From Planctomycetota bacterium (GTDB lineage Bacteria > Planctomycetota > Planctomycetia > Planctomycetales > Planctomycetaceae): a stretch of DNA of 64,000 bases. Positions 3,497-31,556 of the stretch are shown in pieces. The stretch lies in NCBI GenBank assembly GCA_003388505.1, contig QQVO01000053.1:1-64000 (forward strand), read 5' to 3'. The position numbers were made by a program, and so were the translations under genes. The notes under the pieces were generated by a model. That model was not told the DNA's origin. It was given only the letters and a program-made list of their open reading frames with translations, and searched no databases. Positions within the stretch are counted from its first letter, which is position 1; the number at the start of each line of letters is the position of its first letter.

Positions 3497-4234
3497 TCAC
3501 ACCGCCAGCCCGCACACCGCATCCATCAGCCCGTGCAGTGCCTGTGACCTCTTCGGCAGCACCGCCAGATTCCGGCCCTTCAGTGCCTCCGTGAAGCCAT
3601 TGAACAGCCGCCACACCGTCTTCCCACCCTCCTTGAATTCCGCGTGGCTCGGCTCACGCCATTCCGACAACACGGTTGGCACCTGCGTCACCGGCAGCAC
3701 TTGGGCGTCCAGACTGCGGACGATCAAATCGTGAGCCGCCCGGTCGTTGATTCGCGTGCTCTTGTACGCCTCGATCCGCTGGTCCTGCTTGCCACGCATG
3801 CCAACGAGGCGACCAATCGCCTGAGTCACGAGACCGGGCAGATCCCGCTGGATGAACCGGGTGTGCTTGCGGGCAATCGTCACTTCGCCACTGAAGGCCA
3901 GGTTGTCGCAAATGAAGACGCCGCTTCCCAATGCGATTCCGGCCGGGAACGACTTGTCGTGCGAATTCCGCAGGCCGAGGACGAGCCCGTAGTCGTCATG
4001 GGCCTTTCCGTTCTGAACTTCCATCAGACCGAAATACCGGGTTCCCTCGTGCCACAGACCGTGCGACTGGTTCACGACCTGAAAGCCGTTGTCTCCGAGC
4101 GTTCGTTCGACCAGGCCCAGCAGCCGGTGGTGGGGGATCGGCACCCAGGTCTTCGTCCGGTCCGGCGTGGGAGCACAGAGGACTTCCTGCCTGTCGGCGT
4201 GATGAGCGCCACAGTGGAGCATCAGGTTCAGCAT
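3497..4234 (-). CDS. DUF932 family protein (phage/plasmid type)
   Basis: 245 residues matching the DUF932 family, which is often found on phages, plasmids and islands and has no established biochemical role. Seen: GLVLGLRNSHDKSFPAGIA (84-102), then GVFICDNLAFSGE (105-117), then RKHTRFIQRDLPGLV (122-136). Near the end are HAEFKEGGKTVWRLFN and LPKRSQALHGLMDAVC. These blocks are the conserved core of the family. The length is close to the usual one and the gene looks intact. It lies in the accessory segment between hypothetical genes and a lipoprotein/membrane gene pair. Its presence supports the view that this end of the window is mobile DNA. Confidence 0.85.
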   Translation of the reverse strand: MLNLMLHCGAHHADRQEVLCAPTPDRTKTWVPIPHHRLLGLVERTLGDNGFQVVNQSHGLWHEGTRYFGLMEVQNGKAHDDYGLVLGLRNSHDKSFPAGIALGSGVFICDNLAFSGEVTIARKHTRFIQRDLPGLVTQAIGRLVGMRGKQDQRIEAYKSTRINDRAAHDLIVRSLDAQVLPVTQVPTVLSEWREPSHAEFKEGGKTVWRLFNGFTEALKGRNLAVLPKRSQALHGLMDAVCGLAV

Positions 4235-6644: not shown

Positions 6645-7214
6645 ATGAACACCACTTCTCCGAGTCTGATTGAACGGCTGCGCACGACTGAGGATCAGCA
6701 GGCGTGGGGCCGGTTCGTCGAGTTGTATTCGCCGCTGCTCTATTACTGGGCGCACAAGATCGGGCTCTCGCGCGATCAGGCGGCCGACCTGGTGCAGGAC
6801 GTGTGCCTGGTGCTGATGGACAAGCTGCCGGAGTTCGATTACGACGCGTCGCGCAGTTTTCGGGGCTGGCTGCGAACGATCACGCTGAACAAGTGCCGGG
6901 ATCAGTTGCGGCGGCAGGCGCGGGGGCCGCGGAACGAAAGGACCGGCGAGATGGCGAAGCTTGACGTGAGCGACAACGTCGAGTTTCTCGGCGAACAGGA
7001 GTATCGCGAGCAGTTGGTGCGGCGGGCGCTGCAGTTGATGGAGACGGAGTTCGAGGCGACCACCTGGCGGGCCTGCTGGGAGCACGTCGTCTCGGGGAAG
7101 TCGGCGGAACGGATTGCGGCGGAACTGGGGATGTCGGTCAACGCGGTGTATCTCGCCAAGTCGCGCGTGTTGCGGCGGTTGCGGGAGGAGTTGGCGGGGT
7201 TGCTGGATCCGTAG
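6645..7214 (+). CDS. ECF-type RNA polymerase sigma factor
   Basis: 189 residues from the ATG at 6645; an earlier in-frame start at 6600 adds an unlikely leader. Sigma region 2 spans about 20-90, with WGRFVELYSPLLYYWAHKIG, the DQAADLVQDVCLVL segment that binds core polymerase, and FRGWLRTITLNKCRDQLRR for -10 recognition. Region 4 is at about 125-185, with GKSAERIAAELGMSVNAVY as the -35 helix-turn-helix. No anti-sigma factor gene follows as a separate unit. Instead the next gene (7487-12025) begins with a zinc-finger-like segment fused to a protein kinase, and this pairing is common in planctomycetes. It likely directs transcription in response to a signal relayed through that kinase. Confidence 0.93.
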   Translation: MNTTSPSLIERLRTTEDQQAWGRFVELYSPLLYYWAHKIGLSRDQAADLVQDVCLVLMDKLPEFDYDASRSFRGWLRTITLNKCRDQLRRQARGPRNERTGEMAKLDVSDNVEFLGEQEYREQLVRRALQLMETEFEATTWRACWEHVVSGKSAERIAAELGMSVNAVYLAKSRVLRRLREELAGLLDP

Positions 7215-18241: not shown

Positions 18242-19453
18242 GTGCGTTTCCATCACGCTGCGCTGATCTTGGCGCTGATTCTCGGGTGGAACGCAATGGC
18301 CCACAGTCAGGATGCGCCGCGGCCTCCCTCGGACGTCATTGCCGTCGATCAGCCGAACGACGTGGGCAATACAGTTGACGTTTCGTGGTCGCTGTCTCCC
18401 GACGATCGGGCAGACGTCTCTCCGCGGCTTGTCACCCGCTACGACGTGTACCGGCGTGCCGTGGGTGAAGAGGAGTTCGTCAAGGTGGGCGACCAGCCGC
18501 CCGGGGCCAGCACTCTCGCGGACTCCAATGCGGTCCGTGACACCGAGTATCTCTACCAGGTCGTCGCCGTCGGTCCGGACGAGGCGGAATCGGCTCCGGC
18601 CGCTGCCGCCGCGACCGTTGTTCCCCGCATGGAGTACTTCCGGCGGGACCGCGCGTGGTTCGCAGTCATCGTGTTCTGCATTTGCTCCACGGTGGTGGCC
18701 TTTATTGTGATCGCGCGATCCGGCCGCGAACTCTACATCCGGAAGATTCCCGGACTGGAGGCGGTCGACGAGGCGGTCGGCCGGGCGACCGAGATGGGCC
18801 GGGACTGCCTGTTCGTCCCGGGCATCATGGACATCAACGACATTCAGACCGTGGCGGGGATCAACGTCCTCAGCCGCGTCTCGCAACTGACGGCCGAGTT
18901 CGGCGCGCGTCTCGAAGTCCCCACCGCGCGATCGCTGGTGATGACGGCGGCTCGCGAGACGGTCGAAGCGTCCTACTACGCCGCCGGTCGCCCCGACGCC
19001 TACAACGAGGACGACATCTACTACATCTCGGACGAGCAATTCGGATACGTCGCGGGCGCGATGGGCGCGATGGTGCGCGAGAGACCGGCCGCCTGCTTCT
19101 ACATGGGCGTTTTCTACGCAGAGAGCCTGCTGCTGGCGGAGACCGGGAATTCGATCGGCGCGATTCAGGTTGCCGGAACCGCGATGCCGGCCCAGTTGCC
19201 GTTCTTTGTCGCCGCCTGCGACTACACGCTGATCGGCGAAGAGTTCTTTGCAGCGTCGGCCTACCTGTCGGGTGAGGCGTCTCAGCTCGGCAGCCTGCGG
19301 GGACAGGACGTCGGCAAGCTGCTGGTGGCCTTTTTGCTCCTCGTCGGCTGCTCTGCCGCAACCATTGCCGGACTCACCGATTCCGACTCGGCGGAAACCG
19401 CGCTGACATTCATCAAGGACCACGTGCTGGGAGACAAAGGGTTTCTGCCGTGA
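18242..19453 (+). CDS. DUF6754-like membrane protein with fibronectin III domain
   Basis: 403 residues. A signal peptide (MRFHHAALILALILGWNAMA) is followed by a fibronectin type III-like domain at about 27-130 (VDVSWSLSPDD, YDVYRRAVG, YLYQVVAVG). A membrane segment lies at about 137-158 (WFAVIVFCICSTVVAFIVIA). A cytoplasmic domain of about 200 residues then includes FVPGIMDINDIQTVAG and ITEEASYYAAG-like helices, and a last membrane segment sits near 360-378. The gene starts 1 base after the stop of 17113-18240 and overlaps 19450-20163 by 4 bases. Tight coupling with both neighbours points to a stoichiometric complex. Function unknown. Confidence 0.75.
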   Translation: MRFHHAALILALILGWNAMAHSQDAPRPPSDVIAVDQPNDVGNTVDVSWSLSPDDRADVSPRLVTRYDVYRRAVGEEEFVKVGDQPPGASTLADSNAVRDTEYLYQVVAVGPDEAESAPAAAAATVVPRMEYFRRDRAWFAVIVFCICSTVVAFIVIARSGRELYIRKIPGLEAVDEAVGRATEMGRDCLFVPGIMDINDIQTVAGINVLSRVSQLTAEFGARLEVPTARSLVMTAARETVEASYYAAGRPDAYNEDDIYYISDEQFGYVAGAMGAMVRERPAACFYMGVFYAESLLLAETGNSIGAIQVAGTAMPAQLPFFVAACDYTLIGEEFFAASAYLSGEASQLGSLRGQDVGKLLVAFLLLVGCSAATIAGLTDSDSAETALTFIKDHVLGDKGFLP

Positions 19454-20163
19454 AACGCACCGTGCCACTGATCATCGCCGGGACAGTCGGCTTCGTGCTG
19501 ATCGTCTCGTACTTCATCCCCTACACCGAATCGTGGGGGGAGGATGCGATGACCTGGTTCAACATCCTGGCCGCCATCGCTTTTGTTCTGGGCGCGGGGA
19601 ACCTGGTCAAGATGCATCTCAAGAAGATCTCCGACCAGCAGGCCGGCTGGGGATACTCGGCAATCACGCTCGCGGCGTTCTTCTTCACTCTGATCGTGGG
19701 GATGCTGAAGATCGGCGTGACGCCCTCGGAGAAGTATCCGACCAACGCCTGGGCCGGGCCGTATGACCAGGCAGGCTCGGCGTTTCGCTGGGTCTACGAT
19801 TACCTGTTCCTGCCGCTTTCGGCGACGATGTTCGCAATGTTGGCGTTCTACATCGCGTCCGCCGCATTCCGCGCCTTCCGCGCCAAGAATGTGGAAGCGA
19901 TTGCCCTGCTGACCACCGCGTTCATCGTCCTGCTCGGCCGCACCTACGCGGGCGTCTGGCTTACCGATTGGATTCCCGAGGAATCGATCGGACTCGAGGC
20001 GGATGCGCTGCGGCTCGACAACGTGACCGGCACGATCATGAACACGTTCAACCTGGCCGGCATGCGGGCCATCACCATCGGGATCGCCCTGGGAGTCGCC
20101 TCGACCAGCCTCAAAGTCCTGCTGGGCGTCGATCGCTCCTATCTCGGTTCCACGGACGATTAG
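19450..20163 (+). CDS. polytopic membrane protein of the same cluster
   Basis: 237 residues with about six membrane segments (5-23, 35-54, 68-87, 120-140, 147-166 and 200-222). No family recognised. It overlaps the previous gene by 4 bases (ATGA-type). Its stop codon TAG is the first three bases of repeat B copy 1, so the repeat directly abuts the coding sequence and may have replaced the original end of the gene or been inserted exactly at it. The next gene of the cluster begins 108 bases later, across the repeat. Confidence 0.75.
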   Translation: MKRTVPLIIAGTVGFVLIVSYFIPYTESWGEDAMTWFNILAAIAFVLGAGNLVKMHLKKISDQQAGWGYSAITLAAFFFTLIVGMLKIGVTPSEKYPTNAWAGPYDQAGSAFRWVYDYLFLPLSATMFAMLAFYIASAAFRAFRAKNVEAIALLTTAFIVLLGRTYAGVWLTDWIPEESIGLEADALRLDNVTGTIMNTFNLAGMRAITIGIALGVASTSLKVLLGVDRSYLGSTDD

Positions 20164-20264
20164 AGCAAATTGCTCTACCATGTGTCCGCGTCGAGCGGTA
20201 TTTGGACTGTCGAGAACGAGAATCCGCGAGAAAGATCGCCAACACTGATTTGCAAATCGCCATA
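20161..20264 (+). repeat. dispersed repeat family B, copy 1
   Basis: 104 bp beginning with the palindrome TAGAGCAAATTGCTCTA, then GTGTCCGCGTCGAGCGGT, AATCCGCGAGA, and ending with the palindrome GATTTGCAAATC and GCCATA. The first TAG is the stop codon of the preceding gene. It lies inside an operon, directly before the start of 20272-21126. Other copies are at 25921, 63390 and, degenerate, 22053. Confidence 0.9.
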
Positions 20265-20271
20265 AGTGCGG

Positions 20272-21126
20272 ATGTATACGTTTCTCAGAGATCTTGACCG
20301 GCGCTGGATCTTCCTGTTGATGGGGATCGTGGCCACCGTCCCGATCCTCGCCGGCTGGCGGTTTCCCGAAGACCCCTCTCCCATGGTCCGGGACGTGTTT
20401 CACGCCATCGAGGATCTACCCGACGGCTCCCGCATTTTCATGGCCTACGACTACGACCCGGCCAGCCAGGGAGAACTGCACCCGATGGCGTTGGCGTTTA
20501 CCCGTCACTGCGCGCTCAAGGGGCACAAGCTGTACTTCTTCACGCTCTGGCCGCAGGGAGGGCCGCTGATCCAGCAGAACATTCGACTGATCGAGCGGAA
20601 TTTCCCCGATTACGAATACGGGGAGGACTACGTCAACCTGGGATACCGCTCGGGACAGGAAGGGCCGATCAAGGTGATCGTGACCGACCTGCGGAAGTCG
20701 GTTGCCGTCGACGTCAACGGGACCAGTCTGAGCGAAATTCCCATGACACGCGACATCCGCAACATTCAGCAGATGGACCTCATCGTGAATGTCAGCGCCG
20801 GTTACCCCGGCACCAAAGAGTGGGTGTTGTACGCCTCAACTCCCTACAACATCGAAACCGTCGCCGGCTGCACCGGAGTCTCGGCCCCGTATCTGTACCC
20901 CTACTATCCCGAGCAGTTAGCCGGCATTCTGGGAGCGATCAAGGCCGCGGCCGAGTACGAGTACACGCTGATCGAAGAGTATCCCCAGCTCAAGGACGAT
21001 CCCACCGCCCAGGAAGCTTTGCGCCGCATGGGTCCGCAACTCGTGGCGCACGTCACGCTGATCGTGCTGATCATCGTCGGTAACACGATCTACTTCGTCG
21101 GCCGATCGCGGGGGGATGTGACATGA
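20272..21126 (+). CDS. membrane-anchored protein of the cluster
   Basis: 284 residues from the ATG at 20272 (a GTG six bases earlier is possible). An N-terminal membrane segment (WIFLLMGIVATVPILAGW, about 12-29) is followed by a 220-residue domain. Its blocks include GSRIFMAYDYDPASQGELHP, HCALKGHKLYFFTLWPQGG, and repeated QGGPLIQQNI/PIKVIVTDLRKSVAVD patterns suggestive of a Rossmann-like fold. A C-terminal membrane segment is at about 255-275. No family recognised. Its stop overlaps the next start by 4 bases. It is the first gene after repeat B inside the cluster, so its expression may depend on that element. Confidence 0.7.
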   Translation: MYTFLRDLDRRWIFLLMGIVATVPILAGWRFPEDPSPMVRDVFHAIEDLPDGSRIFMAYDYDPASQGELHPMALAFTRHCALKGHKLYFFTLWPQGGPLIQQNIRLIERNFPDYEYGEDYVNLGYRSGQEGPIKVIVTDLRKSVAVDVNGTSLSEIPMTRDIRNIQQMDLIVNVSAGYPGTKEWVLYASTPYNIETVAGCTGVSAPYLYPYYPEQLAGILGAIKAAAEYEYTLIEEYPQLKDDPTAQEALRRMGPQLVAHVTLIVLIIVGNTIYFVGRSRGDVT

Positions 21127-22049
21127 AGCCGCAGACCCTGGGCTGGACGCTGTTAATGGTCGTGGGAGGCGCGTTCCTCATCGGCCGCGCCGTGCTGACC
21201 GGGGCCGGCACGGTGTATGTCCAGGACGTCGAGATCGAGGTCGAGATTGAGGATGAAGCAGAAGAGGAAGCACAGGTCGTAACACTCCAGCGCGTCGAAC
21301 AGGTTCCTCCGAACGCGCGGAGCGAGCCCGGCGTCCGGCTGAGCTACGTGCACACCTTCGGCCTCTGGGTCGCGGCTGCCTGTACGCTCGGCATTTTCTC
21401 GTTTCTGTGGGGCGACAACCCGCTCTACAAGGTGACGGAGGCGATCTTCGTCGGCTCATCGGCCGCATATGCCATGGTGGTCGCCTTCTGGTCTGAACTG
21501 GTGCAGAACCTCTGTGGCAATCTGCTGCCCGACCTGATGCGGGAGACGTTGATTCCGGGACTGAAAGTCGAAGAACCGAATCTCTGGTATCTCGTCCCGC
21601 TCGTGATGGCGATCATGCTGTTGTGGCGGCTGATGCCGAGCGGAGGCTGGATTTCGCGCTGGCCGCTGGCGTTCTTCATCGGCGCCACGGCGGGCTTCCG
21701 CATGATGGGCTACCTCGAAGCCGACTTCACGCAGCAGATCAGCAACACAATCATGCCGTTGATTGTCACCGGTGCAGACGGTTCGTTTCAGTTCTGGGCG
21801 TCGCTGAAGAACATGACCATCGTCGGCAGCGTGCTGGTCTGTCTCACCTATTTCTTCTTCTCGGTCGAGCACACCGGTCCCGTGGGTTGGGCGGCGAGGC
21901 TCGGCATCTGGGTGTTGATGATCACGTTCGGAGCGAGCTTCGGGTATACCGTCATGGGTCGGATCGCTCTCCTCGCGGGTCGTCTCGAATTCCTCTTCGA
22001 CGACTGGCTCTGGCTGATCGACCCCCTCGGCCGCCGCCTCGACATGTAG
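21123..22049 (+). CDS. polytopic membrane protein, last gene of the cluster
   Basis: 308 residues. After a first membrane segment (LGWTLLMVVGGAFLIGRAVL) comes an acidic stretch of Glu/Asp and Val (about 35-55). Then follow about six more segments, including a long conserved-looking one at WISRWPLAFFIGATAGFRMM and one near the end (LGIWVLMITFGASFGYTVM). It overlaps the previous gene by 4 bases (ATGA). No family recognised. Together with 17113-21126 it completes a five-gene run in which three proteins are integral to the membrane and at least one carries a large soluble domain. Confidence 0.75.
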   Translation: MKPQTLGWTLLMVVGGAFLIGRAVLTGAGTVYVQDVEIEVEIEDEAEEEAQVVTLQRVEQVPPNARSEPGVRLSYVHTFGLWVAAACTLGIFSFLWGDNPLYKVTEAIFVGSSAAYAMVVAFWSELVQNLCGNLLPDLMRETLIPGLKVEEPNLWYLVPLVMAIMLLWRLMPSGGWISRWPLAFFIGATAGFRMMGYLEADFTQQISNTIMPLIVTGADGSFQFWASLKNMTIVGSVLVCLTYFFFSVEHTGPVGWAARLGIWVLMITFGASFGYTVMGRIALLAGRLEFLFDDWLWLIDPLGRRLDM

Positions 22050-22052
22050 CCG

Positions 22053-22150
22053 GCGAGAGCAATTCGCTCGACCGTGCGTCCGCGTTGAGCGGTGATCAGA
22101 TTGCCGAACGTGCGCCCGGAGAGTCTCTCAGCCGTTGACGGTTTCTACGT
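22053..22150 (+). repeat. degenerate copy of repeat family B
   Basis: Right after the stop of 21123-22049: GAGAGCAATTCGCTCGACCG, then TGCGTCCGCGTTGAGCGGTG, matching the first half of repeat B. The second half has diverged. Confidence 0.6.
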
Positions 22151-22232
22151 CTGTCAGTGATACTCAGTGACACAGAAACCGGCGGAGCGACCGGAGGCCC
22201 GCCTGCGCACTTCTTTGACCAGGAGAGTTCTC

Positions 22233-23744
22233 ATGGCTCGCCCCCACACTGTCGCCGCCTGTCTGATCGCCGCCGGGATCTTTGCCGCGTCGACTCTCAC
22301 ATTGCGAGCCGCTGAGCCGTCGTTGCTCGAAAAGTTGAAAGCCGACGAGGCGGACGCCGCGGCGGAAGCCGAGCGGTATTCCAAACAGGGCGCCCGGGAC
22401 GTTTCGCAGGACGCGACTCACGTTCAGGTCGGCACGATCGATCTCGGCGGGACCGACGGCGGTTGCGTGGTCAATACGTTCTGTATGGTTTCCGAAGGCC
22501 GGTTGCTGGTCGCCGTCGGAGGGCGGCAGCAGTCGGTGCAGGTGGTCAGCGGAGAGCGGACCGTGGAGACGGTCGAGACCGGCAACGAGATCCGCATCTT
22601 TTCGCAGGAGGGCGAGCTGGTCGACACCTGGAACGTGCCGTTTGCTCCGCAGGCGATGAACGTCGCGCCGGATCTGTCGGTGTACATCGCCGGAGCCGGT
22701 CAGATCGCCAGGCTCGATGCGGAAGGGAACGTGGTCAAACAGGGCTCCACGCCGCAGATCGGCAATCTTGAAGAATTCAAGGAACAGGTGCGGCAGCAAC
22801 TGGTCGAACAGGCCAAACAGCGAGCGGAAGTGTTCACGCAGCAGATCGAGCGTGCCGAGGAGATCGTCGCCAAACTGAACGAGAAGCCGGAGAACGAGCG
22901 GACGGCCATCGACAAGCTGAGGCTGCGGAACGCACAACGGCAGCTCGATCTGCTGGAGTCGAACGCCGAGTTGGTCGAGTCGCAATCGGCGGAGATCGAT
23001 ATCGGCTATTACATGACCTACAAGCTCAAGGTGCCGGGGATGGCGGTCAGCGAACAGGATGTGTTCGTGGCCGTCAGTGCGGTGAACGGCTACGGGTATG
23101 ACGTGTGGCGGATGGACCATGACTTCGGCGATCCGGTGAAAGTCGTCGAAGGTCTCCGCGGCTGTTGCGGTCAGATGGACATTCAATGTCAGGACGGAGA
23201 CCTGTATGTGGCGGAGAACTCCCGGCATCGCGTGTGCCGTTTCAGCCGGGAGGGAGAACTGATCGGCCAGTGGGGCAAAAGCGACCGCACCGGCAAGGAG
23301 GGCTTCGAGGGCTGTTGCAATCCGATGAATCTCCGCTTTGGCGCGAACGGAGAGGTGCTGACGGCGGAGTCCGGCTGTGGAGCGATCAAGCGGTATACGC
23401 CGGAGGGCGAATTCATCGGACTGCTCGGACACGCCGAACTCCAGGGAGGCTGCAAGCACGTGGCCGTGGCGGCGACGCCGGACTCATCGAAAGTCTTCAT
23501 GCTCGACGTGCCGCGGACCAGGATCTGCATTCTGGAACCGCGTTCCGACGCGGCAACCCCCGCAGGCGACGGAGAGAAACCGGCGACGACCGTCAATCCG
23601 ACGGATGAGAAACCCGCCGCAACAACGGAAACTTCCGCGTCGACTCCCGCCCCGGCCAAACCGGAGATTCGCCGTCCCGCGAAGTTGAAGGTGAAGCAGC
23701 GTCCGACGGTGTTGAGGCAGCGATCGGCGAAGGGTTCCCGCTGA
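22233..23744 (+). CDS. Cys-rich NHL-repeat beta-propeller, secreted
   Basis: 503 residues from the ATG at 22233, which follows AGGAGAG and opens a signal peptide (MARPHTVAACLIAAGIFAAS...). Propeller blades are visible as GDLYVAENSRHRVCRFSREG and GEVLTAESGCGAIKRYTPEG, typical NHL repeats. A helical Gln/Glu-rich insert of about 90 residues, likely a coiled coil, splits the propeller in the middle (EEFKEQVRQQLVEQAKQRAE and onward). Cysteines come in recurring spots (GCCGQMD, GCCNPMN, SGCGAI, GGCKHV), one per blade, which suggests disulfides or a metal site. The tail is Pro/Thr-rich and basic. The next gene encodes a PhnD-like binding protein. Confidence 0.7.
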   Translation: MARPHTVAACLIAAGIFAASTLTLRAAEPSLLEKLKADEADAAAEAERYSKQGARDVSQDATHVQVGTIDLGGTDGGCVVNTFCMVSEGRLLVAVGGRQQSVQVVSGERTVETVETGNEIRIFSQEGELVDTWNVPFAPQAMNVAPDLSVYIAGAGQIARLDAEGNVVKQGSTPQIGNLEEFKEQVRQQLVEQAKQRAEVFTQQIERAEEIVAKLNEKPENERTAIDKLRLRNAQRQLDLLESNAELVESQSAEIDIGYYMTYKLKVPGMAVSEQDVFVAVSAVNGYGYDVWRMDHDFGDPVKVVEGLRGCCGQMDIQCQDGDLYVAENSRHRVCRFSREGELIGQWGKSDRTGKEGFEGCCNPMNLRFGANGEVLTAESGCGAIKRYTPEGEFIGLLGHAELQGGCKHVAVAATPDSSKVFMLDVPRTRICILEPRSDAATPAGDGEKPATTVNPTDEKPAATTETSASTPAPAKPEIRRPAKLKVKQRPTVLRQRSAKGSR

Positions 23745-23800
23745 AAACAACCGGCGATTAGCGTTGAGGCGCGCCGGCCGGTTCTTCGGGAGAGAAGCTC

Positions 23801-24709
23801 ATGACATTCGGAATGCGTATGAACAAGTCGCAGCGAGTTTTCCTGGCGGTCGTGGTAGTGTGCGCGGCAGTGTCCGGCTTGGGACTGACCGCGCAGGCGG
23901 AAGACTCGCCGACCGATGCGTTTCAGCTCATCGTGATGGATCCGCTGGCGGCGCCGCTGGCGTGCGACTGCGTCGAGGGCTACGCACAGCGCAAGTACGA
24001 GAAACTGGGCGAGTACCTGGCGCCGTTCATCGGGCGGCCCGTCAACGTTGTCTTCGTCAACGCAATCGGGACGGCGCTGGAGGAGAAGTCGACCGGCCGC
24101 GCGGACCTGGTGATTGGAAAGCACTCGGTGGTCGCCTCGGACGCGAAAAAGAATGATCTGAGCCTCACCCCCGTCGCGCATTTAACGGGACCGGACGGAA
24201 AAACGACGCAGACCGGACTGATTGTCGTCCTGGCGGATGATCCCGCTCAAACGGCCGCTGATCTCGCAGGCTATCGTATTTTCTTCGGTCCGGCCGATTG
24301 CGACGAGAAGTCGGCCGCGCCGATGAAACTGTTGCGGGAAAGCGGCGTCGAGTTGCCCGAGGACGTTGAGACCTGCCCGGCTTGCAGCGACGCTGCGGTG
24401 AAGATTCTGGAACTCGGTCCGGAGGTGCGGTCCGCGGCGGTGATCTCCAGCTACGCGAAGCCTCTGCTGGAGGGATGCGGCACGGTGAAGAAAGGCGACC
24501 TGCGCGTCGTCGGTGAGTCGGACAAGGTGCCGTTTATCACGGCGTTCGTCAACGAAGACCTCTCCGCGAGTGAACGCGAAAAGGTGATGGCCGGCCTGAA
24601 CGAAGTGCAGTACGACATCCAGATGCTGATTGCCCTGGAAAGCAAGGTCGGGTTCGTTCCCGTCGATCGCGCTGATGACGAGCCGGACGTCGCAAAAAAA
24701 AAGAACTGA
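23801..24709 (+). CDS. PhnD/SsuA-type periplasmic binding protein, 0-frame product
   Basis: 302 residues, start at 23801 after GGGAGAG. A signal peptide (MNKSQRVFLAVVVVCAAVSG...) follows the first five residues. It resembles PhnD/TctC-like substrate-binding proteins: LIVMDPLAAPLACDCVEGYA, GRPVNVVFVNAIGTALEEKS, GRADLVIGKHSV, then LAGYRIFFGPADCDEKSAA. It has CxxC (ETCPACSD). The frame ends VAKKKN-stop right after a run of nine A (24694-24702). Directly beyond, in the -1 frame, starts a PQQ-type propeller that has no start codon of its own, so the full protein is probably PhnD-like plus propeller joined by a -1 frameshift. Confidence 0.8.
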   Translation: MTFGMRMNKSQRVFLAVVVVCAAVSGLGLTAQAEDSPTDAFQLIVMDPLAAPLACDCVEGYAQRKYEKLGEYLAPFIGRPVNVVFVNAIGTALEEKSTGRADLVIGKHSVVASDAKKNDLSLTPVAHLTGPDGKTTQTGLIVVLADDPAQTAADLAGYRIFFGPADCDEKSAAPMKLLRESGVELPEDVETCPACSDAAVKILELGPEVRSAAVISSYAKPLLEGCGTVKKGDLRVVGESDKVPFITAFVNEDLSASEREKVMAGLNEVQYDIQMLIALESKVGFVPVDRADDEPDVAKKKN

Positions 24710-25923
24710 CCTCGGCGGTCGCTGATGAGGCGATTCGGCCGAAACGCGACGAATTCGTCTGGACGGGTTGGCGCGGGCCGGAGCGAGACGGACTTGTCCC
24801 GTGGCTGCCCGCCGCTTTCCCTGACCAGCCGAAGATTGAGTGGACGCTCCCGCTGACCGGCGACGGCCTGGCGGGCGTCGCGGCGACTTTGGAGCTTGTG
24901 ATCGTCGCTGATCGCGATTTCCTGGACACGCACGACGTCTGGCGGTGTCTTGACGCGGCGCTCGGCCTCGAGTTGTGGACGGTGACCTACCGGGCCGAAG
25001 GCCAACTCGACTACGGGAATTCCCCCCGCGCGACTCCGCTGATCCACGGGGACTTCGTGTACCTGCAGGGAGCGTTCGGCCATCTGCTCTGCGTGGAACT
25101 GGCGAGCGGCGAAATTGTCTGGCAGCGAGACCTGCTGGCCGACTTTGATGCGGAACTGCCGATCTGGGGTCTGTGCGGGTCGCCGTTGATCGCCGGAGGA
25201 AACCTGATCGTCAATCCGGGCGGTCCGCAGGCGTTTCTCGCTGCTCTGGACCCTGCCACGGGCGAGACGCGGTGGACGACGCCCGGCCGGACTGCGGCGT
25301 ATGCGTCGTTCATCGAAGCGGACCTCGGCGGCCGGCGGCAGCTCGTCGGATACGACAAGGTTTCTCTGGGAGGCTGGGACGTCGAAACGGGCCGCCGCCT
25401 GTGGGAACTCAAGCCGGCGATCCCCGGCGACTTCAATGTTCCCACGCCGGTCGTTGTCGAAAAGCAATTGCTCGTCACCACCGAGAACAATGGGACGAGG
25501 TTGTACGGCTTCAACGACGACGGGACGATCGTCCCGCAACCGAAAGCCCGTTACGAACGGCTGGCGGCCGATTCCAGCACCGCCGTCGTGATCGATGGTC
25601 GCGTGTTCGGCGTGTGGAATGATCTGCACTGCCTGTCGGCGGAAAACGACCTGGAACCGCTGTGGCGCAGCCGGGATCGTGTGTTTCGGGACTATGCCAG
25701 CCTGATCGCCGCACCGGGCCGGGTGCTGGTGACGACGACGAGCGGAGAATTGATCCTCGTCGACTCGACTTCGGCGGACTACAACGTCGTGGGGCGAATG
25801 CCGGTGATTGCCGACGACTCTGAGGTGCATGCGCATCCGGCGCTGGCGGGGACGCGGCTCTATGTGCGCAGCGCCTCGTCGATCCTTTGCGTCAATCTTG
25901 GCGATGCTGATCCGCTTCCGTAG
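24679..25923 (+). CDS. PQQ-type beta-propeller in the -1 frame, no own start
   Basis: The frame opens after TGATGA at 24673-24678 and runs to TAG at 25923. Its start lies within the end of the 23801-24709 gene, -1 relative to it. The first signature is WTGWRGPERDG at about 24760, typical of the start of secreted PQQ-like propellers in planctomycetes, followed by blades such as GLELWTVTYRAEG, GEIVWQRDLLAD and GETRWTTPGRT. No ATG, GTG or TTG stands before that signature; the first TTG at 24889 would cut off the blade. The simplest reading is translation continuing from the PhnD-like gene by frameshift at 24697-24703. Its stop TAG belongs to repeat B copy 2. Confidence 0.75.
   Translation, partial: RAGRRKKKELTSAVADEAIRPKRDEFVWTGWRGPERDGLVPWLPAAFPDQPKIEWTLPLTGDGLAGVAATLELVIVADRDFLDTHDVWRCLDAALGLELWTVTYRAEGQLDYGNSPRATPLIHGDFVYLQGAFGHLLCVELASGEIVWQRDLLADFDAELPIWGLCGSPLIAGGNLIVNPGGPQAFLAALDPATGETRWTTPGRTAAYASFIEADLGGRRQLVGYDKVSLGGWDVETGRRLWELKPAIPGDFNVPTPVVVEKQLLVTTENNGTRLYGFNDDGTIVPQPKARYERLAADSSTAVVIDGRVFGVWNDLHCLSAENDLEPLWRSRDRVFRDYASLIAAPGRVLVTTTSGELILVDSTSADYNVVGRMPVIADDSEVHAHPALAGTRLYVRSASSILCVNLGDADPLP
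24694..24703 (+). other. slippery site A-AAA-AAG in a run of nine A
   Basis: In the PhnD-like frame the codons read GCA AAA AAA AAG AAC TGA. The heptamer A-AAA-AAG at 24697-24703 is the classic bacterial -1 slip site, as in dnaX. A -1 slip here joins the PhnD-like and propeller frames. Transcript slippage on nine A, or a missed A in the assembly, would give the same result. Confidence 0.65.
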
Positions 25924-26024
25924 AGCAAACTGCTCGACCGTGTGTCCGCGTCGAGCGGTGTTCGGACTGTCGAAGACGACAATCCGCGAGACAGATCCAC
26001 AACCCTGATTTGCAAAGCGCTATA
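25921..26024 (+). repeat. dispersed repeat family B, copy 2
   Basis: 104 bp starting TAGAGCAAACTGCTCGACC, then GTGTCCGCGTCGAGCGGT and AATCCGCGAGAC, ending at TTTGCAAAGCGCTATA. As with copy 1 the first TAG is the stop codon of the gene in front. Confidence 0.9.
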
Positions 26025-26116
26025 GCCGGGAGAGAACTCACGAAACCCCGGTTGATTTCATCCGGGTTCGGTCCGATGATTGGGGTTGCGTGACTTACGA
26101 ATCATCGGAACACGAC

Positions 26117-27520
26117 ATGCGTCCACCGGCTCTTGTACGACTCACGGTGAGAATTCTCGCGTGGTTCGCAATTTCCGCGTGCAGCAAGTGCCTCGTCATG
26201 GACATCCGAATCGCGGAGCGAGTCGGCTCCATTGGAACCTTCTGTTTTTTCGTGTTCGTCGCGGCGTCGCCCGCGCGGGCCGTTGATGCGCCGCCGGAGA
26301 TTTCCGGCCAGACGATGGGGACCAGCTACAGCGTCAAGCTGCGCCAGCTTCCACAAGGTCGCACGCCATCCGATTTGCAGGCGGACATCGACCGGTTGCT
26401 GGACGAGATCAACGACCAGATGTCGACCTACCGCGCAGACTCGGAACTGTCGCGTTTCAATCGGCGGGCGTCGCTCGAATGGTTTCCCGTTTCCGCCGAC
26501 ACGGCGGTCGTGGTGGCCCGCGCTCTCGCGGTTGCGGAAGACTCCGGCGGTGCGTTCGATCCGACCGTCGGTCCGCTGGTGCGGTTGTGGAACTTCGGTC
26601 CCGGACCACGGACGAATCAGGTTCCCGGAGATGCGGAGATTGACGCTGCGTTGGAAATCGTCGGCTATGAAAAGGTTACGGCCCGGACCGATCCGCCTTC
26701 GCTCCGCAAGACTGTTCCCGGCGTGGAACTTGATCTCAGTGCGATCGCCAAAGGATTCGCCGTCGACCGTGTCGCGGAATACCTGAGCGGGGCCGGTGTC
26801 GCAGATTTCATGGTGGAAATCGGCGGGGAGATGCGGGTGTCCGGCAGCCGGCCTGACGGCGACGCCTGGCGGATCGGCGTCGAAGCGCCCGCGATCGACG
26901 CGCGGCGGGCGGGCTGGATGCTGCCTCTGAGTGACGCGTCGCTGGCGACTTCGGGGGATTACCGCAACTACTTTGAATCGGACGGGACACGCTACTCGCA
27001 TACGATTGATCCCCGCACCGGAAGACCGGTCACGCATTCGCTGGCATCGGTCACGATCGTCGCCGACGACTGCGCCACATCCGATGCTTGGGCGACGACG
27101 CTGATGGTGCTGGGGCCGGAGGAAGGCCTGCGTTGGGCGGAAGAGCGGAAAATCGCCGCGTGGATGCTGCTGCACGAGAGGGATGGGATTTCGCAGCAGG
27201 CGACATTGGATTTCTCGGAGCGTTTCGGTGAGCCGGAGCCCATCGGGGGAGTGACGGCTGAGGGTCCGCCGTCGTGGATCACGTTCGCATTGGCAGCGGC
27301 GCTGATCGGCGTGGCGGTGATCGGTCTGGGAATCGGCGGAATTGTTGCCAATCGGCAGTTGCGCGGTTCCTGCGGCGGGCTGGCGGAGATGACCGACGCG
27401 GCTGGAAATCCGGTCTGCTCGTCCTGCACGAATCCCCCGGAGGACTGCGACGAATTCCGGCGGCGGGTGGTGGACGCCGCCGCGAGCGACGCCCGCGATG
27501 AGTCGCCGAATCGGGGCTGA
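26117..27520 (+). CDS. FAD:protein FMN transferase (ApbE) fused to an NqrM-like tail
   Basis: About 467 residues from the ATG at 26117. Earlier GTG (26090) and later ATG (26198) starts are possible; the last gives a simple signal peptide, the former a lipobox-like AISAC. The ApbE core is clear: GQTMGTSYSVKL, DQMSTYRADSELSRFN, FDPTVGPLVRLWNFGP, DLSAIAKGFAVDRV, VEIGGEMRVSG, then TSGDYRNYF and SHTIDPRTGRPV, and CATSDAWATTLM. It transfers FMN from FAD to a Thr/Ser on target proteins outside the membrane. After a membrane segment (FALAAALIGVAVIGLGIGG) a tail with GSCGGL...CSSC...C matches NqrM, the maturation factor of Na+-NQR. Those two are usually separate genes in an nqr operon. No nqr gene is present in the window. 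Confidence 0.88.
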   Translation: MRPPALVRLTVRILAWFAISACSKCLVMDIRIAERVGSIGTFCFFVFVAASPARAVDAPPEISGQTMGTSYSVKLRQLPQGRTPSDLQADIDRLLDEINDQMSTYRADSELSRFNRRASLEWFPVSADTAVVVARALAVAEDSGGAFDPTVGPLVRLWNFGPGPRTNQVPGDAEIDAALEIVGYEKVTARTDPPSLRKTVPGVELDLSAIAKGFAVDRVAEYLSGAGVADFMVEIGGEMRVSGSRPDGDAWRIGVEAPAIDARRAGWMLPLSDASLATSGDYRNYFESDGTRYSHTIDPRTGRPVTHSLASVTIVADDCATSDAWATTLMVLGPEEGLRWAEERKIAAWMLLHERDGISQQATLDFSERFGEPEPIGGVTAEGPPSWITFALAAALIGVAVIGLGIGGIVANRQLRGSCGGLAEMTDAAGNPVCSSCTNPPEDCDEFRRRVVDAAASDARDESPNRG

Positions 27521-28011
27521 GGGCGGGTCGACCGAGCAGACGAGTGAAATTGAACACTCGCCGCGCACCTATTGTTTTCACGCAGCGTCCCGGCGCGGGC
27601 GACGCCCGCAACCCAACCACGTAGCGCACGCAGCCTTGCGTGCGTCCCGCTGATCGCAGAGGTGGTTGGCGCACGCCGGCAGCGTGCGCTACGGGCCCGC
27701 GCAAGAATCTGCGCTCGAAAGTCGAGTGTGGCCAGGTTCTTCGAGGGCCGGCCGATTGTTCGACGGATCGCGTCGGCCTATGATCCGGAAACGCGACAGG
27801 CCCGCTCGCCCGGATTATTCATGACGAGGGCCCGGTTCACTATAAGTGTTTGCCAAACAGCAGGTTATCAAGAAGTTGCCCAAAGCGCCGCGCTTTTCGA
27901 ACGCATTGCACGCCGACGCCAAGTCAACGGAGACGCACGCTGGCAGCGTGCGCTACGAATAATCCGGGCTCGGTCTCGGGTGCGTGAAACAGGCGAGGTG
28001 GAACGACGGAA
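27521..28011. other. intergenic region with palindromic GC-rich units
   Basis: No gene supported. It holds imperfect hairpins built on GCGCACGCAG/CTGCGTGCGC, at about 27620-27645, 27668-27695 and 27927-27955, related to the tandem array at 57657-57743. The long frame on the plus strand across it is not protein-like. Confidence 0.5.
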
Positions 28012-28500
28012 ATGCCCGTTATCGAAGGACAGCTCGACGCCGGGCCGGATGCGGAACTGGCGATCGTGGTCGCGCGATTCAACGACGTCGTCACGCGGAA
28101 ACTGCTGAGCGGCGCGTTGGCGACGCTGGGCGAACACGGCGTCTCGGAGGATCGTGTGAATGTCGTGTGGACGCCCGGTGCTTTTGAGATTCCGCTGGCC
28201 GCCGCTCGCCTGGCCGCCAGTGGACGATACGCCGCCGTGATCTGTCTCGGTGCGGTCGTTCAGGGCGAGACGCTGCATCACGAATACATCAACAGCGAGG
28301 TCTCGCGGGCGCTGATGCAGATTGGGCTGGAGACCGGAATCCCCGTCTTGTTCGGCGTGTTGACGACTCGTAATATGGAGCAGGCCCTGGAACGCGCCGG
28401 CGGGAAGGCCGGCAACAAGGGAAGCGAAGCGGCCTTGGCGGCCCTCGAGATGATCGGGTTGATCCAGCAGCTTCCCCCGCCTCACGACTCCGGCTCGTGA
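28012..28500 (+). CDS. ribH: 6,7-dimethyl-8-ribityllumazine synthase
   Basis: 162 residues. It condenses 5-amino-6-ribitylamino-uracil with 3,4-dihydroxy-2-butanone phosphate in the penultimate step of riboflavin synthesis. Motifs seen: ARFNDVVTRKLL (substrate pyrimidine loop), TPGAFEIPLAA, GAVVQGETLHHEYI with the catalytic His, and RNMEQALERAGGKAGNKGSEAA near the C-terminus. The usual Arg before G-x-T-x-H is Gln here. Length is normal for the family. It is followed after 52 bases by nusB, a pairing common in many bacteria because the two genes share an operon. No other rib gene is nearby. Confidence 0.96.
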   Translation: MPVIEGQLDAGPDAELAIVVARFNDVVTRKLLSGALATLGEHGVSEDRVNVVWTPGAFEIPLAAARLAASGRYAAVICLGAVVQGETLHHEYINSEVSRALMQIGLETGIPVLFGVLTTRNMEQALERAGGKAGNKGSEAALAALEMIGLIQQLPPPHDSGS

Positions 28501-28560
28501 GCGGTCTTCTGAGACTCGCCGCGCTTCCCGGCGGGAGAATCAACGGCAAGAGTGGCGGTT

Positions 28561-28983
28561 ATGGCACGGCGGAGCAAGGCGCGCGAAGTTGCGCTGCAGA
28601 TGCTTTATCAGGTCGACTTGAATCCCGACGTGGACGGGCACGCCGTGCGCGAGATGATCGCGGAACGGATCCGGGAGAAACCGCTGCAGGATTTCGCTTG
28701 GACTCTGTTTGCCGGCGTGATGGAGTACCGCGCGGCCCTTGATGAACGGATCCAGCGGGTCGCCACGAACTGGAAACTGGGGCGGATGGCGGCGACCGAT
28801 CGAAATTGCCTGCGGCTGGGCGCCTTTGAGCTGTTACACACCGAAACGCCGCACCGCATTCTGATCGATGAGGCGCTGGAACTGGCGAAGAAATACGGCA
28901 ACGAACAGTCCGCTTCGTTCGTCAACGGCGTGCTCGACAAGCTGGTTCCGGAGGAGAAGCGGAAGGCGGACTCCGCCGAATAG
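28561..28983 (+). CDS. nusB: transcription antitermination factor NusB
   Basis: 140 residues from ATG 28561; GTG at 28552 is an alternative in the same frame. The N-terminus ARRSKAREVALQMLYQ, the ALDERI...NWKLGRMAATDRNCLRLGAFEL centre and the end HRILIDEALELAKKYGNEQSASFVNGVLD are the full NusB signature. It binds boxA RNA with NusE and joins the antitermination complex on rRNA operons. It follows ribH by 60 bases and precedes upp by 30, so the three are probably co-transcribed. Nothing unusual. Confidence 0.96.
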   Translation: MARRSKAREVALQMLYQVDLNPDVDGHAVREMIAERIREKPLQDFAWTLFAGVMEYRAALDERIQRVATNWKLGRMAATDRNCLRLGAFELLHTETPHRILIDEALELAKKYGNEQSASFVNGVLDKLVPEEKRKADSAE

Positions 28984-29013
28984 CACGACGGGTCGGCAAC
29001 GACTCTTTTCTGA

Positions 29014-29655
29014 ATGGACGCGATGCCCGGTCTTCATCTGCTCGACCATCCTCTGGCGAAGCATCACCTCACGCATGTGCGGTCGCGCGATACGCAGCCG
29101 GGCGAGTTCCGCCGGCATGTCGGCGAACTGGTCAAACTGCTGGCATTCGACGCCACACGCGATCTTCGCGTCCGGGAAACGACCGTCATCACGCCGTTGT
29201 GTGAGACGACCGGGCATGTCATCGACGAGCGAGTCGGTCTTGTTCCAATTCTGCGGGCCGGCCTGGGCATGGTCGATCCGCTGCTCACGCTCCTCCCGGA
29301 AGCCGAGGTGTGGCATCTCGGTTTGTATCGCGACGAGCAGACGGCCCGACCGGTGGAGTACTATCGCAAGTTGCCGGAAGGGAACCCTGTTGAAACCGCG
29401 ATTGTGCTCGATCCGATGCTGGCCACCGGCGGTTCGGCCCTGCTGGCTCTCGACGCGTTGAAGAAGTGGGGCGTCGCGCGACTCAAGCTGCTGGCCGTAA
29501 TTGCGTCGGCTCCGGGAGTCGAGACCGTCGCGCAGGAGTTTCCCGAAGCATCGATCCACGTCTGCGTGGTCGACCCGGAGCTGAACGACCGGAAGTTCAT
29601 CGTCCCCGGCCTGGGCGACGCGGGGGACCGGTCGTTCAATACGCTCGGAGAGTAA
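29014..29655 (+). CDS. upp: uracil phosphoribosyltransferase
   Basis: 213 residues. Makes UMP from uracil and PRPP in pyrimidine salvage. Motifs: VPILRAGLGMVDPLL, LGLYRDEQTARPVEYY, the PRPP-binding loop VLDPMLATGGSALLA and the uracil-binding end FIVPGLGDAGDRSFNT. Length and order match UPRT. It sits 30 bases after nusB on the same strand. The next gene, a DUF1501 protein, is convergent. Confidence 0.96.
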   Translation: MDAMPGLHLLDHPLAKHHLTHVRSRDTQPGEFRRHVGELVKLLAFDATRDLRVRETTVITPLCETTGHVIDERVGLVPILRAGLGMVDPLLTLLPEAEVWHLGLYRDEQTARPVEYYRKLPEGNPVETAIVLDPMLATGGSALLALDALKKWGVARLKLLAVIASAPGVETVAQEFPEASIHVCVVDPELNDRKFIVPGLGDAGDRSFNTLGE

Positions 29656-29665
29656 AGGGCGCGAG

Positions 29666-31141
<1,476 letters not shown>

Positions 31142-31556
31142 GTCTCCTCGAAATGGTCTCAACGCCCGCGAGCGAGAAACCCCTTTTCCGGGTCACACAG
31201 AAGGAAAGCAAGTCAACGAAGCGGGCTCCCTGTTCGTTCTCGCCAAACTCATGACATCCAGAGTGCCCTGGCAGGGCTGTGTTTACGTGTTGGCTGGATT
31301 GCGAATTCGCACGAAACCCTGCGGGATTCGTGCTTCCGTACGAACCGCTCAACCTGCAAATTCGCAATTGCCGGAACAAGAGTTCAAGGTTCTGCTCCCA
31401 GCCCACCCGCGCGACCACAGCCGGCCGCATTCTTACCCACTTTTCGTTCCCTTCGTTTCCTTCTGTCCTCCCGAACCACTCACGAACTCTCCTCGTCGCC
31501 TCCGTTCCGAAACGGAAGTTCGGGAACGAGGAGTCGTACCACTGTTGCTGAGCATT
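31142..31556. other. intergenic region with repeat C
   Basis: No gene supported. It contains repeat C copy 2 (31263-31372). The rest is a CT-rich sequence with runs of TTCC/CTTC (31430-31510). Confidence 0.5.
31263..31372 (+). repeat. dispersed repeat family C, copy 2
   Basis: Begins TGCCCTGGCAGGGC, centre CGCACGAAACCCTGCGGGAT followed by TCGTGCTTCCGTACGAACCG, ends near TTCGCAATTGCCGG. Same block order as 12070-12180. Confidence 0.85.

Follow-up and report, generated by a model that had tools for sequence, protein, structure and literature searches.

The DNA analysed here (the window) is a 64-kb stretch at the start of contig C14 in a planctomycete genome of 6.78 Mb (G000 in the coordinates below). 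On its plus strand, an NHL-repeat-like gene (22167..23744; NHL 19.7 bits, just below the Pfam cut-off of 20) lies immediately 5' of a PhnD-like ORF (23801..24709), which was recognised by ORF and domain scans and by its orthologues, and whose 302-aa product carries a Phosphonate-bd domain (PF12974; 76.7 bits versus a cut-off of 27), an N-terminus that by eye is signal-like, and the C-terminal end AKKKN*. An earlier note on this DNA had stated that the binding-protein frame ends at an A run with the heptamer A AAA AAG in register, and this holds: the 3' end of the ORF reads GCA AAA AAA AAG AAC TGA in the 0 frame, the nine A occupying 24694..24702 and the heptamer 24697..24703, and the stop codon TGA (24707..24709), 4 nt past the A run, terminates the short product. 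The letters at window positions 24680-24709 are GAGCCGGACGTCGCAAAAAAAAAGAACTGA. The -1 frame, open from 24679 to 25923, reads KKKELTSAV...EFVWTGWRGPERDG... and specifies a linker and a β-propeller of the BamB/PQQ_2 type (104.7 bits). As the same note had claimed, it runs into the propeller without a start codon: no ATG, GTG or TTG occurs ahead of the TTG at 24889, which lies 43 codons beyond the tryptophan encoded at 24760 and hence past the conserved WTGWRG motif (24760..24777) that opens the propeller. Given one A added to the transcript, the long product would have 707 aa by hand count. A run of nine A is found once in the window, versus 0.09 expected, with at least one in 8 of 100 shuffles; the AAAAAAG heptamer by itself is not rare, occurring seven times versus 3.0 expected, a count reached by 1 of 100 shuffles.

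The earlier note had proposed that related planctomycetes be compared for a fused gene with or without the run, and this comparison provides the decisive evidence for the junction run. Counting the source genome, a PhnD-like gene is present in 14 of 59 genomes, two of the matches being weak, and a closely similar propeller adjoins it in 11 of these 14. Wider PhnD searches matched 84 of 397 genomes class-wide and 17 of 392 phylum-wide, in overlapping sets; five class-wide matches on short fragments (G253, G261, the second of G329, G352 and G286) were left unfetched. The named relatives bearing the same gene pair are planctomycetes, and many of the compared loci come from metagenome bins. For the pooled loci (L046-L211 plus L004, L006, L032 and L043), a PhnD score above 150 was required and those identical over the last 300 nt of PhnD were given one count, which yielded 126 distinct loci. 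The propeller lies in the -1 frame in 75 of these and in the +1 frame in one, it is fused in frame in 44, and no propeller was found in six, three of which are close to a contig end.

All 75 loci of the -1 type carry an A run at the junction, with exactly nine A in 58, eight in 16 and ten in one. The 75 gene pairs (148 kb) contain a total of 76 A runs with a length of at least eight, all but one of them at the junction. In 72 of the 75 loci, no more than 10 nt separate the run from the 0-frame stop, and the C-terminus of the short product is uniform (KKK* in 48 and KKN* in 12 of 75). An assembly error, which the earlier note had considered, or a sequencing error or recent frameshift mutation in a truly fused gene, might be suggested by the error-prone nature of homopolymers, by the existence of fused relatives, and by a cytochrome-like gene of the same genome (G000:C18:25927) that looks to carry such a private A9. 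This explanation is rejected, its probability being in our view close to negligible, because the run and the -1 frame are common to 75 loci, eight of which are in single-contig genomes (G018, G047, G083, G092, G095, G129, G156 and G247) and one in the named isolate Rubripirellula obstinata CECT 8602 (L095), and because the nearby stop and the short C-terminus are so regularly kept. Since A8-A10 and the -1 frame are shared in this way, the A run at the PhnD/propeller junction is, as judged from the compared sequences, a conserved recoding site that is predicted to give two products, the binding domain alone or the binding domain plus the propeller.

If the two genes were instead translationally coupled, two separate proteins would be made, the second from a start, possibly a non-standard codon, close to the junction. 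Overlaps of the -1 type are common among coupled genes, and an ATG, GTG or TTG is present between the run and the motif in nine of the 69 loci in which a W..WRG motif was recognised. In the other 60, however, there is no such codon, and the motif begins 12-156 nt past the run (median 27), making an independent propeller start codon unlikely for these 60 loci. Moreover, a BamB-like propeller without a signal would be odd, and coupling leaves the poly-A run unexplained; we consider it very unlikely.

The suggestion in the earlier note of one two-domain secreted protein gains support from the relatives in which both domains occupy one uninterrupted ORF (44 of 120 propeller-bearing loci), among them Lacipirellula limnantheis, Aeoliella straminimaris and Botrimarina hoheduenensis. 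The fused protein of Lacipirellula, modelled from 22 aligned fused relatives (mean pLDDT 86.3, pTM 0.58), is predicted to have a two-lobe α/β domain with the binding fold, followed by a disordered linker (residues 281-311) and then the propeller, and the top Foldseek matches of this model are BamB. In this model, the predicted disordered linker is the part of the fused protein that matches the position of the slip site in the split genes.

A PhnD tree was built with 125 of the 126 rows (one short row was dropped, and the +1 locus was scored as 'slip'); support is weak for 43 of the 122 inner branches. On this tree, the split/fused label changes 11 times, at least four of the changes being forced by well-supported branches, versus an average of 36 in shuffles, and thus the two states seem to interconvert. 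Of the 16 loci with A8 in the -1 state, 13 fall within one cluster of 17 rows. DNA-level phase variation, in which replication slippage alters the length of the A tract and switches the propeller on or off, would find a suitable substrate here, since A9 is slippage-prone for DNA polymerase also, and -1 loci with A9 and in-frame loci with A10 do occur side by side within one small clade. Random phase, however, predicts all three frames, and 75 of the 76 non-fused loci are of the -1 type, 58 of these 75 having length nine; A9 or A10 is kept as well in dnaX, an unlikely phase-variable gene. Phase variation is thus disfavoured by the frame and the length of the junction runs, and we regard it as highly improbable.

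The question of where slippage would take place bears on the heptamer. A programmed -1 ribosomal frameshift at A AAA AAG of the E. coli dnaX or IS3 type, in which the P-site and A-site tRNA-Lys slip in tandem, would yield the long product without any change to the A9 transcript. Such a reading fits every site, since A AAA AAN is in register at 75 of 75 junctions, with G or C as the last base in 67, and the exact form xxA AAA AAA AAG is the commonest (45 of 75). The A8 loci fit it too; RNA polymerase slippage is expected to be weaker on A8. The ribosomal heptamer requires six A only, and the wobble A preceding it is dispensable; yet nine A are usual, and among 66 loci reading AAA AAA AAG/C, which are related sequences and not 66 independent events, the preceding wobble base is A in 50, versus 15.2% A across the third codon positions of these genes. 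Among the 59 A9/A10 rows, the PhnD tree requires a minimum of seven changes of codon register, and, when all 75 rows are taken, the register changes at least 13 times and the run length at least seven times, six of the latter being changes between A8 and a longer run. An SD-like element upstream of the run was not enriched (10 of 75 loci versus 46 of 300 control windows). The fold energy downstream of the run is lower than that of the +300 nt control (mean z -0.75 versus 0.06), but -1 and in-frame fused loci did not differ in this respect (mean z -0.70, n=69, versus -0.50, n=43; p=0.31), and a stimulatory hairpin 3' of the run was set aside because the fused loci fold alike around the W..WRG codons. 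Two sequence features of programmed transcriptional slippage were found, namely an A or T homopolymer of at least 8-9 that is retained by the homologues, and conserved coding in the shifted frame with a nearby unshifted stop, whereas of the features of -1 ribosomal frameshifting the X XXY YYZ heptamer in 0-frame register was found and the upstream SD-like and downstream stem-loop stimulators were not detected.

The tRNA genes also bear on this question. The genome has standalone tRNA-Lys UUU and CUU genes plus a second copy of each, both located in a tRNA array on contig C19. Excerpts of PMC5009743 give E. coli as having tRNA-Lys(UUU) as its sole species, with weak reading of AAG, and offer the two tRNA-Lys species as a possible reason for RNA polymerase slippage in Thermus. 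With tRNA-Lys CUU in the genome, the sole-tRNA-Lys(UUU) condition of E. coli dnaX-type frameshifting does not apply here. Dense arrays of extra tRNA genes occur beside normal singletons at G000:C19:127426-130214, C30:5826-10164 and C67:12573-13119.

Two further groups of loci deviate from the common -1 arrangement. The only +1 case among the 76 non-fused PhnD loci is L046 (same contig as G023:C25), which has A10 at its junction near position 6830; this state fits indels in RNA and not a -1 ribosomal slip, and the possibility of an assembly error applies to this locus. In the in-frame loci with A9 or A10, removal of one A gives an immediate KKK* in four of five, the exception being L141 (A10), and these loci look as if the default had been flipped with both products kept; no immediate stop is hidden in the A8 in-frame loci L143 and L207.

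The genome contains, on both strands, 13 separate runs of nine or more A (16 overlapping matches). Five of the 13 are within recognisable genes in the sense orientation, and four of these five are at conserved recoding positions, namely in dnaX, PhnD-propeller, a VWA gene and an ABC-GNAT gene. By eye, several of the other runs resemble the T tracts of opposite-strand terminators, and one in a long frame on contig C52 was judged non-coding. In dnaX, the A9 is located at G000:C3:243984-243992 (L230, run at 1985); the tau frame is open and the -1 frame reaches a stop two codons later, and by analogy this gene would undergo gamma/tau slippage of the Thermus type. In a dnaX survey covering 50 of 58 matching genomes, A9 or A10 was found in 40 (26 of 30 within the family and 14 of 20 in other families), and the other 10 have no run of nine or more; the runs are in differing registers, and the next base is C, G or T. 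In the VWA gene, whose A9 lies at G000:C13:108206-108214 (L228, run at 4207), an 869-aa frame ends soon past A9C and the -1 continuation is 513 aa. Thirty of 56 matching genomes were surveyed, and the VWA junction has A8-A10 in 29 of the 30 loci, the sole miss being cut by a contig end. The second part is in the -1 frame in 27 of the 29 and in the +1 frame in two; loss of one A in the RNA would join the latter two, one of which is cut by a contig end and both of which may be errors. The frame ahead of the run exceeds 400 aa in 25 of 29 loci, and 11 genomes from other families have the second part within an open frame of 1286-1621 aa, a length that could accommodate both parts. The ABC-ATPase/GNAT-like gene has an A9 with a -1 join on the minus strand at G000:C14:147516-147524 (L229). 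Both motifs could be located in 20 of 26 fetched loci, the source genome counted; 13 of these 20 are -1 (11 with A9, one with A8 and one without a run) and seven are in frame, five of these without a run; the stop of the first frame lies ~100 nt past the run in most and does not follow at once.

The fifth run provides a contrast case. It breaks the frame of the cytochrome-like gene on the minus strand at G000:C18:25927-25935 (L231), and the site was found in six of 19 fetched relatives. Since the six relatives read are all in frame and have no A run longer than five, this gene is not counted among the slip genes, and its A9 is an error or a fresh mutation.

Taken together, the run length is kept better than the codon register, specific stimulators were not found, both tRNA-Lys species are encoded and dnaX has an A9 that resembles that of Thermus; for these reasons transcriptional slippage on A9 appears to fit better than a ribosomal slip on A AAA AAG. 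The former was the second option of the earlier note and now seems the more likely, and the dnaX-type -1 slip that it had placed first seems less likely. We therefore consider it probable that 24694-24702 is a conserved site of programmed transcriptional slippage. A ribosomal frameshift, which would leave L046 and the two +1 VWA loci unexplained, is in our estimation unlikely, though less so than the other alternatives discussed above.

Under transcriptional slippage, RNA polymerase would occasionally gain one A on the nine-A run. A faithful A9 transcript would give the exported 302-aa PhnD-like protein (...KKKN*), and an A10 transcript, in which the propeller is in frame, would give an exported protein of ~707 aa consisting of the binding domain, a Lys-rich flexible linker and the BamB-like propeller. 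Selection would act for two products at a set ratio. The fusion would have been hard-wired in frame in some relatives, and in a few others, in which the run is in frame, the short form would result from the loss of one A. We lean, by a small measure, towards a Planctomycetia-wide set of A9-slippage genes (dnaX, PhnD-propeller, VWA, ABC-GNAT and perhaps more), in which the local RNA polymerase would misread nine A at a useful rate, the choice between A8, A9 and A10 would tune the addition of a domain, and slippage, reversed slippage and hard-wired fusion would be freely interchangeable in evolution.

The neighbourhood of the gene pair is in part conserved. In a scan of titled records, the best 80 of 112 loci were used as named loci, and an NHL-repeat-like gene lies 5' of PhnD in 70 of these best 80. 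Downstream of the propeller, the window has an ApbE gene with a C-terminal NqrM-like stretch (26090-27520), and ApbE was found beside the PhnD module in none of the best 80 of 112 named loci. A search of a plasmid collection gave zero matches. A possible reading is an exported module of NHL protein, binding domain and propeller, in which only a share of the binding protein would carry the propeller; this share might, for example, anchor or recruit the binding protein to an envelope complex at a fixed ratio.

To our knowledge, few bacterial genes have programmed RNA polymerase slippage. The PhnD-propeller genes would add to these a gene family that occurs in much of one class and whose exported protein would gain or lack a whole second domain depending on slippage, and they link this case to the dnaX, VWA and ABC-GNAT genes of one genome. 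Plain ORF calling would annotate such a gene as two, a binding protein followed by a propeller that lacks a leader. The predictions can be tested by ordinary RNA-seq and proteomics in cultured planctomycetes. Among the open-access matches listed, no report of slippage in planctomycetes was found; one relevant paper, PMC3711429, covers two planctomycete genomes.

The two domains resemble known proteins and differ from them. Like the PhnD and PtxB binders, the PhnD-like protein has a Phosphonate-bd domain, and its profile matches in the PDB are 5jvb (E 1.5e-10) and 5o2j (E 5.4e-4). Unlike these binders, for which excerpts of PMC5700983 describe an STS-H ligand motif of phosphite/phosphonate binders, it shows no match to STS-H at the positions aligned to 5jvb in a profile alignment inspected by eye that is not structure-based; cysteines 55, 57, 195 and 226 are invariant among 11 aligned relatives, and a scan of eight neighbouring ORFs (19450-31162) revealed no ABC transporter domain. 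The propeller is like BamB and other PQQ_2 propellers in its PQQ_2 match and in the BamB matches of the fused relative, but it is joined to a binding-protein domain and scores 45.6 bits with the BamB equivalog assembly_YfgL, below the cut-off of 285.2.

With regard to the junction, the in-register A AAA AAG heptamer is shared with E. coli dnaX; unlike the latter, PhnD-propeller has a nine-A run whose register is not fixed, no SD enrichment or specific hairpin was found, and tRNA-Lys CUU is encoded in the genome. As in Shigella mxiE, where according to excerpts of PMC1088944 slippage on a T run joins two overlapping ORFs into a longer protein, slippage would join two frames; mxiE is an unrelated regulator, whereas the PhnD-propeller run is mostly A9, is common to many genera and is replaced by an in-frame fusion in some relatives. 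Programmed A9 slippage is already known from Thermus dnaX (available parts of PMC1088944, PMC5009743 and PMC3711429), and Baranov and colleagues, in excerpts of PMC1088944, hold that a 9-A run conserved in length among homologues very likely serves purposeful slippage. PhnD-propeller is thus best described as a new candidate case of this known type. It is similar to Thermus thermophilus dnaX, as portrayed in the excerpts of PMC1088944 and PMC5009743, in having a coding A9, a nearby stop, two (here predicted) products with a common N-terminus and two tRNA-Lys species. It differs in that the unslipped product is the long one in Thermus dnaX and would be the short one here, in belonging to another gene family, and in that slippage would add a whole exported domain.
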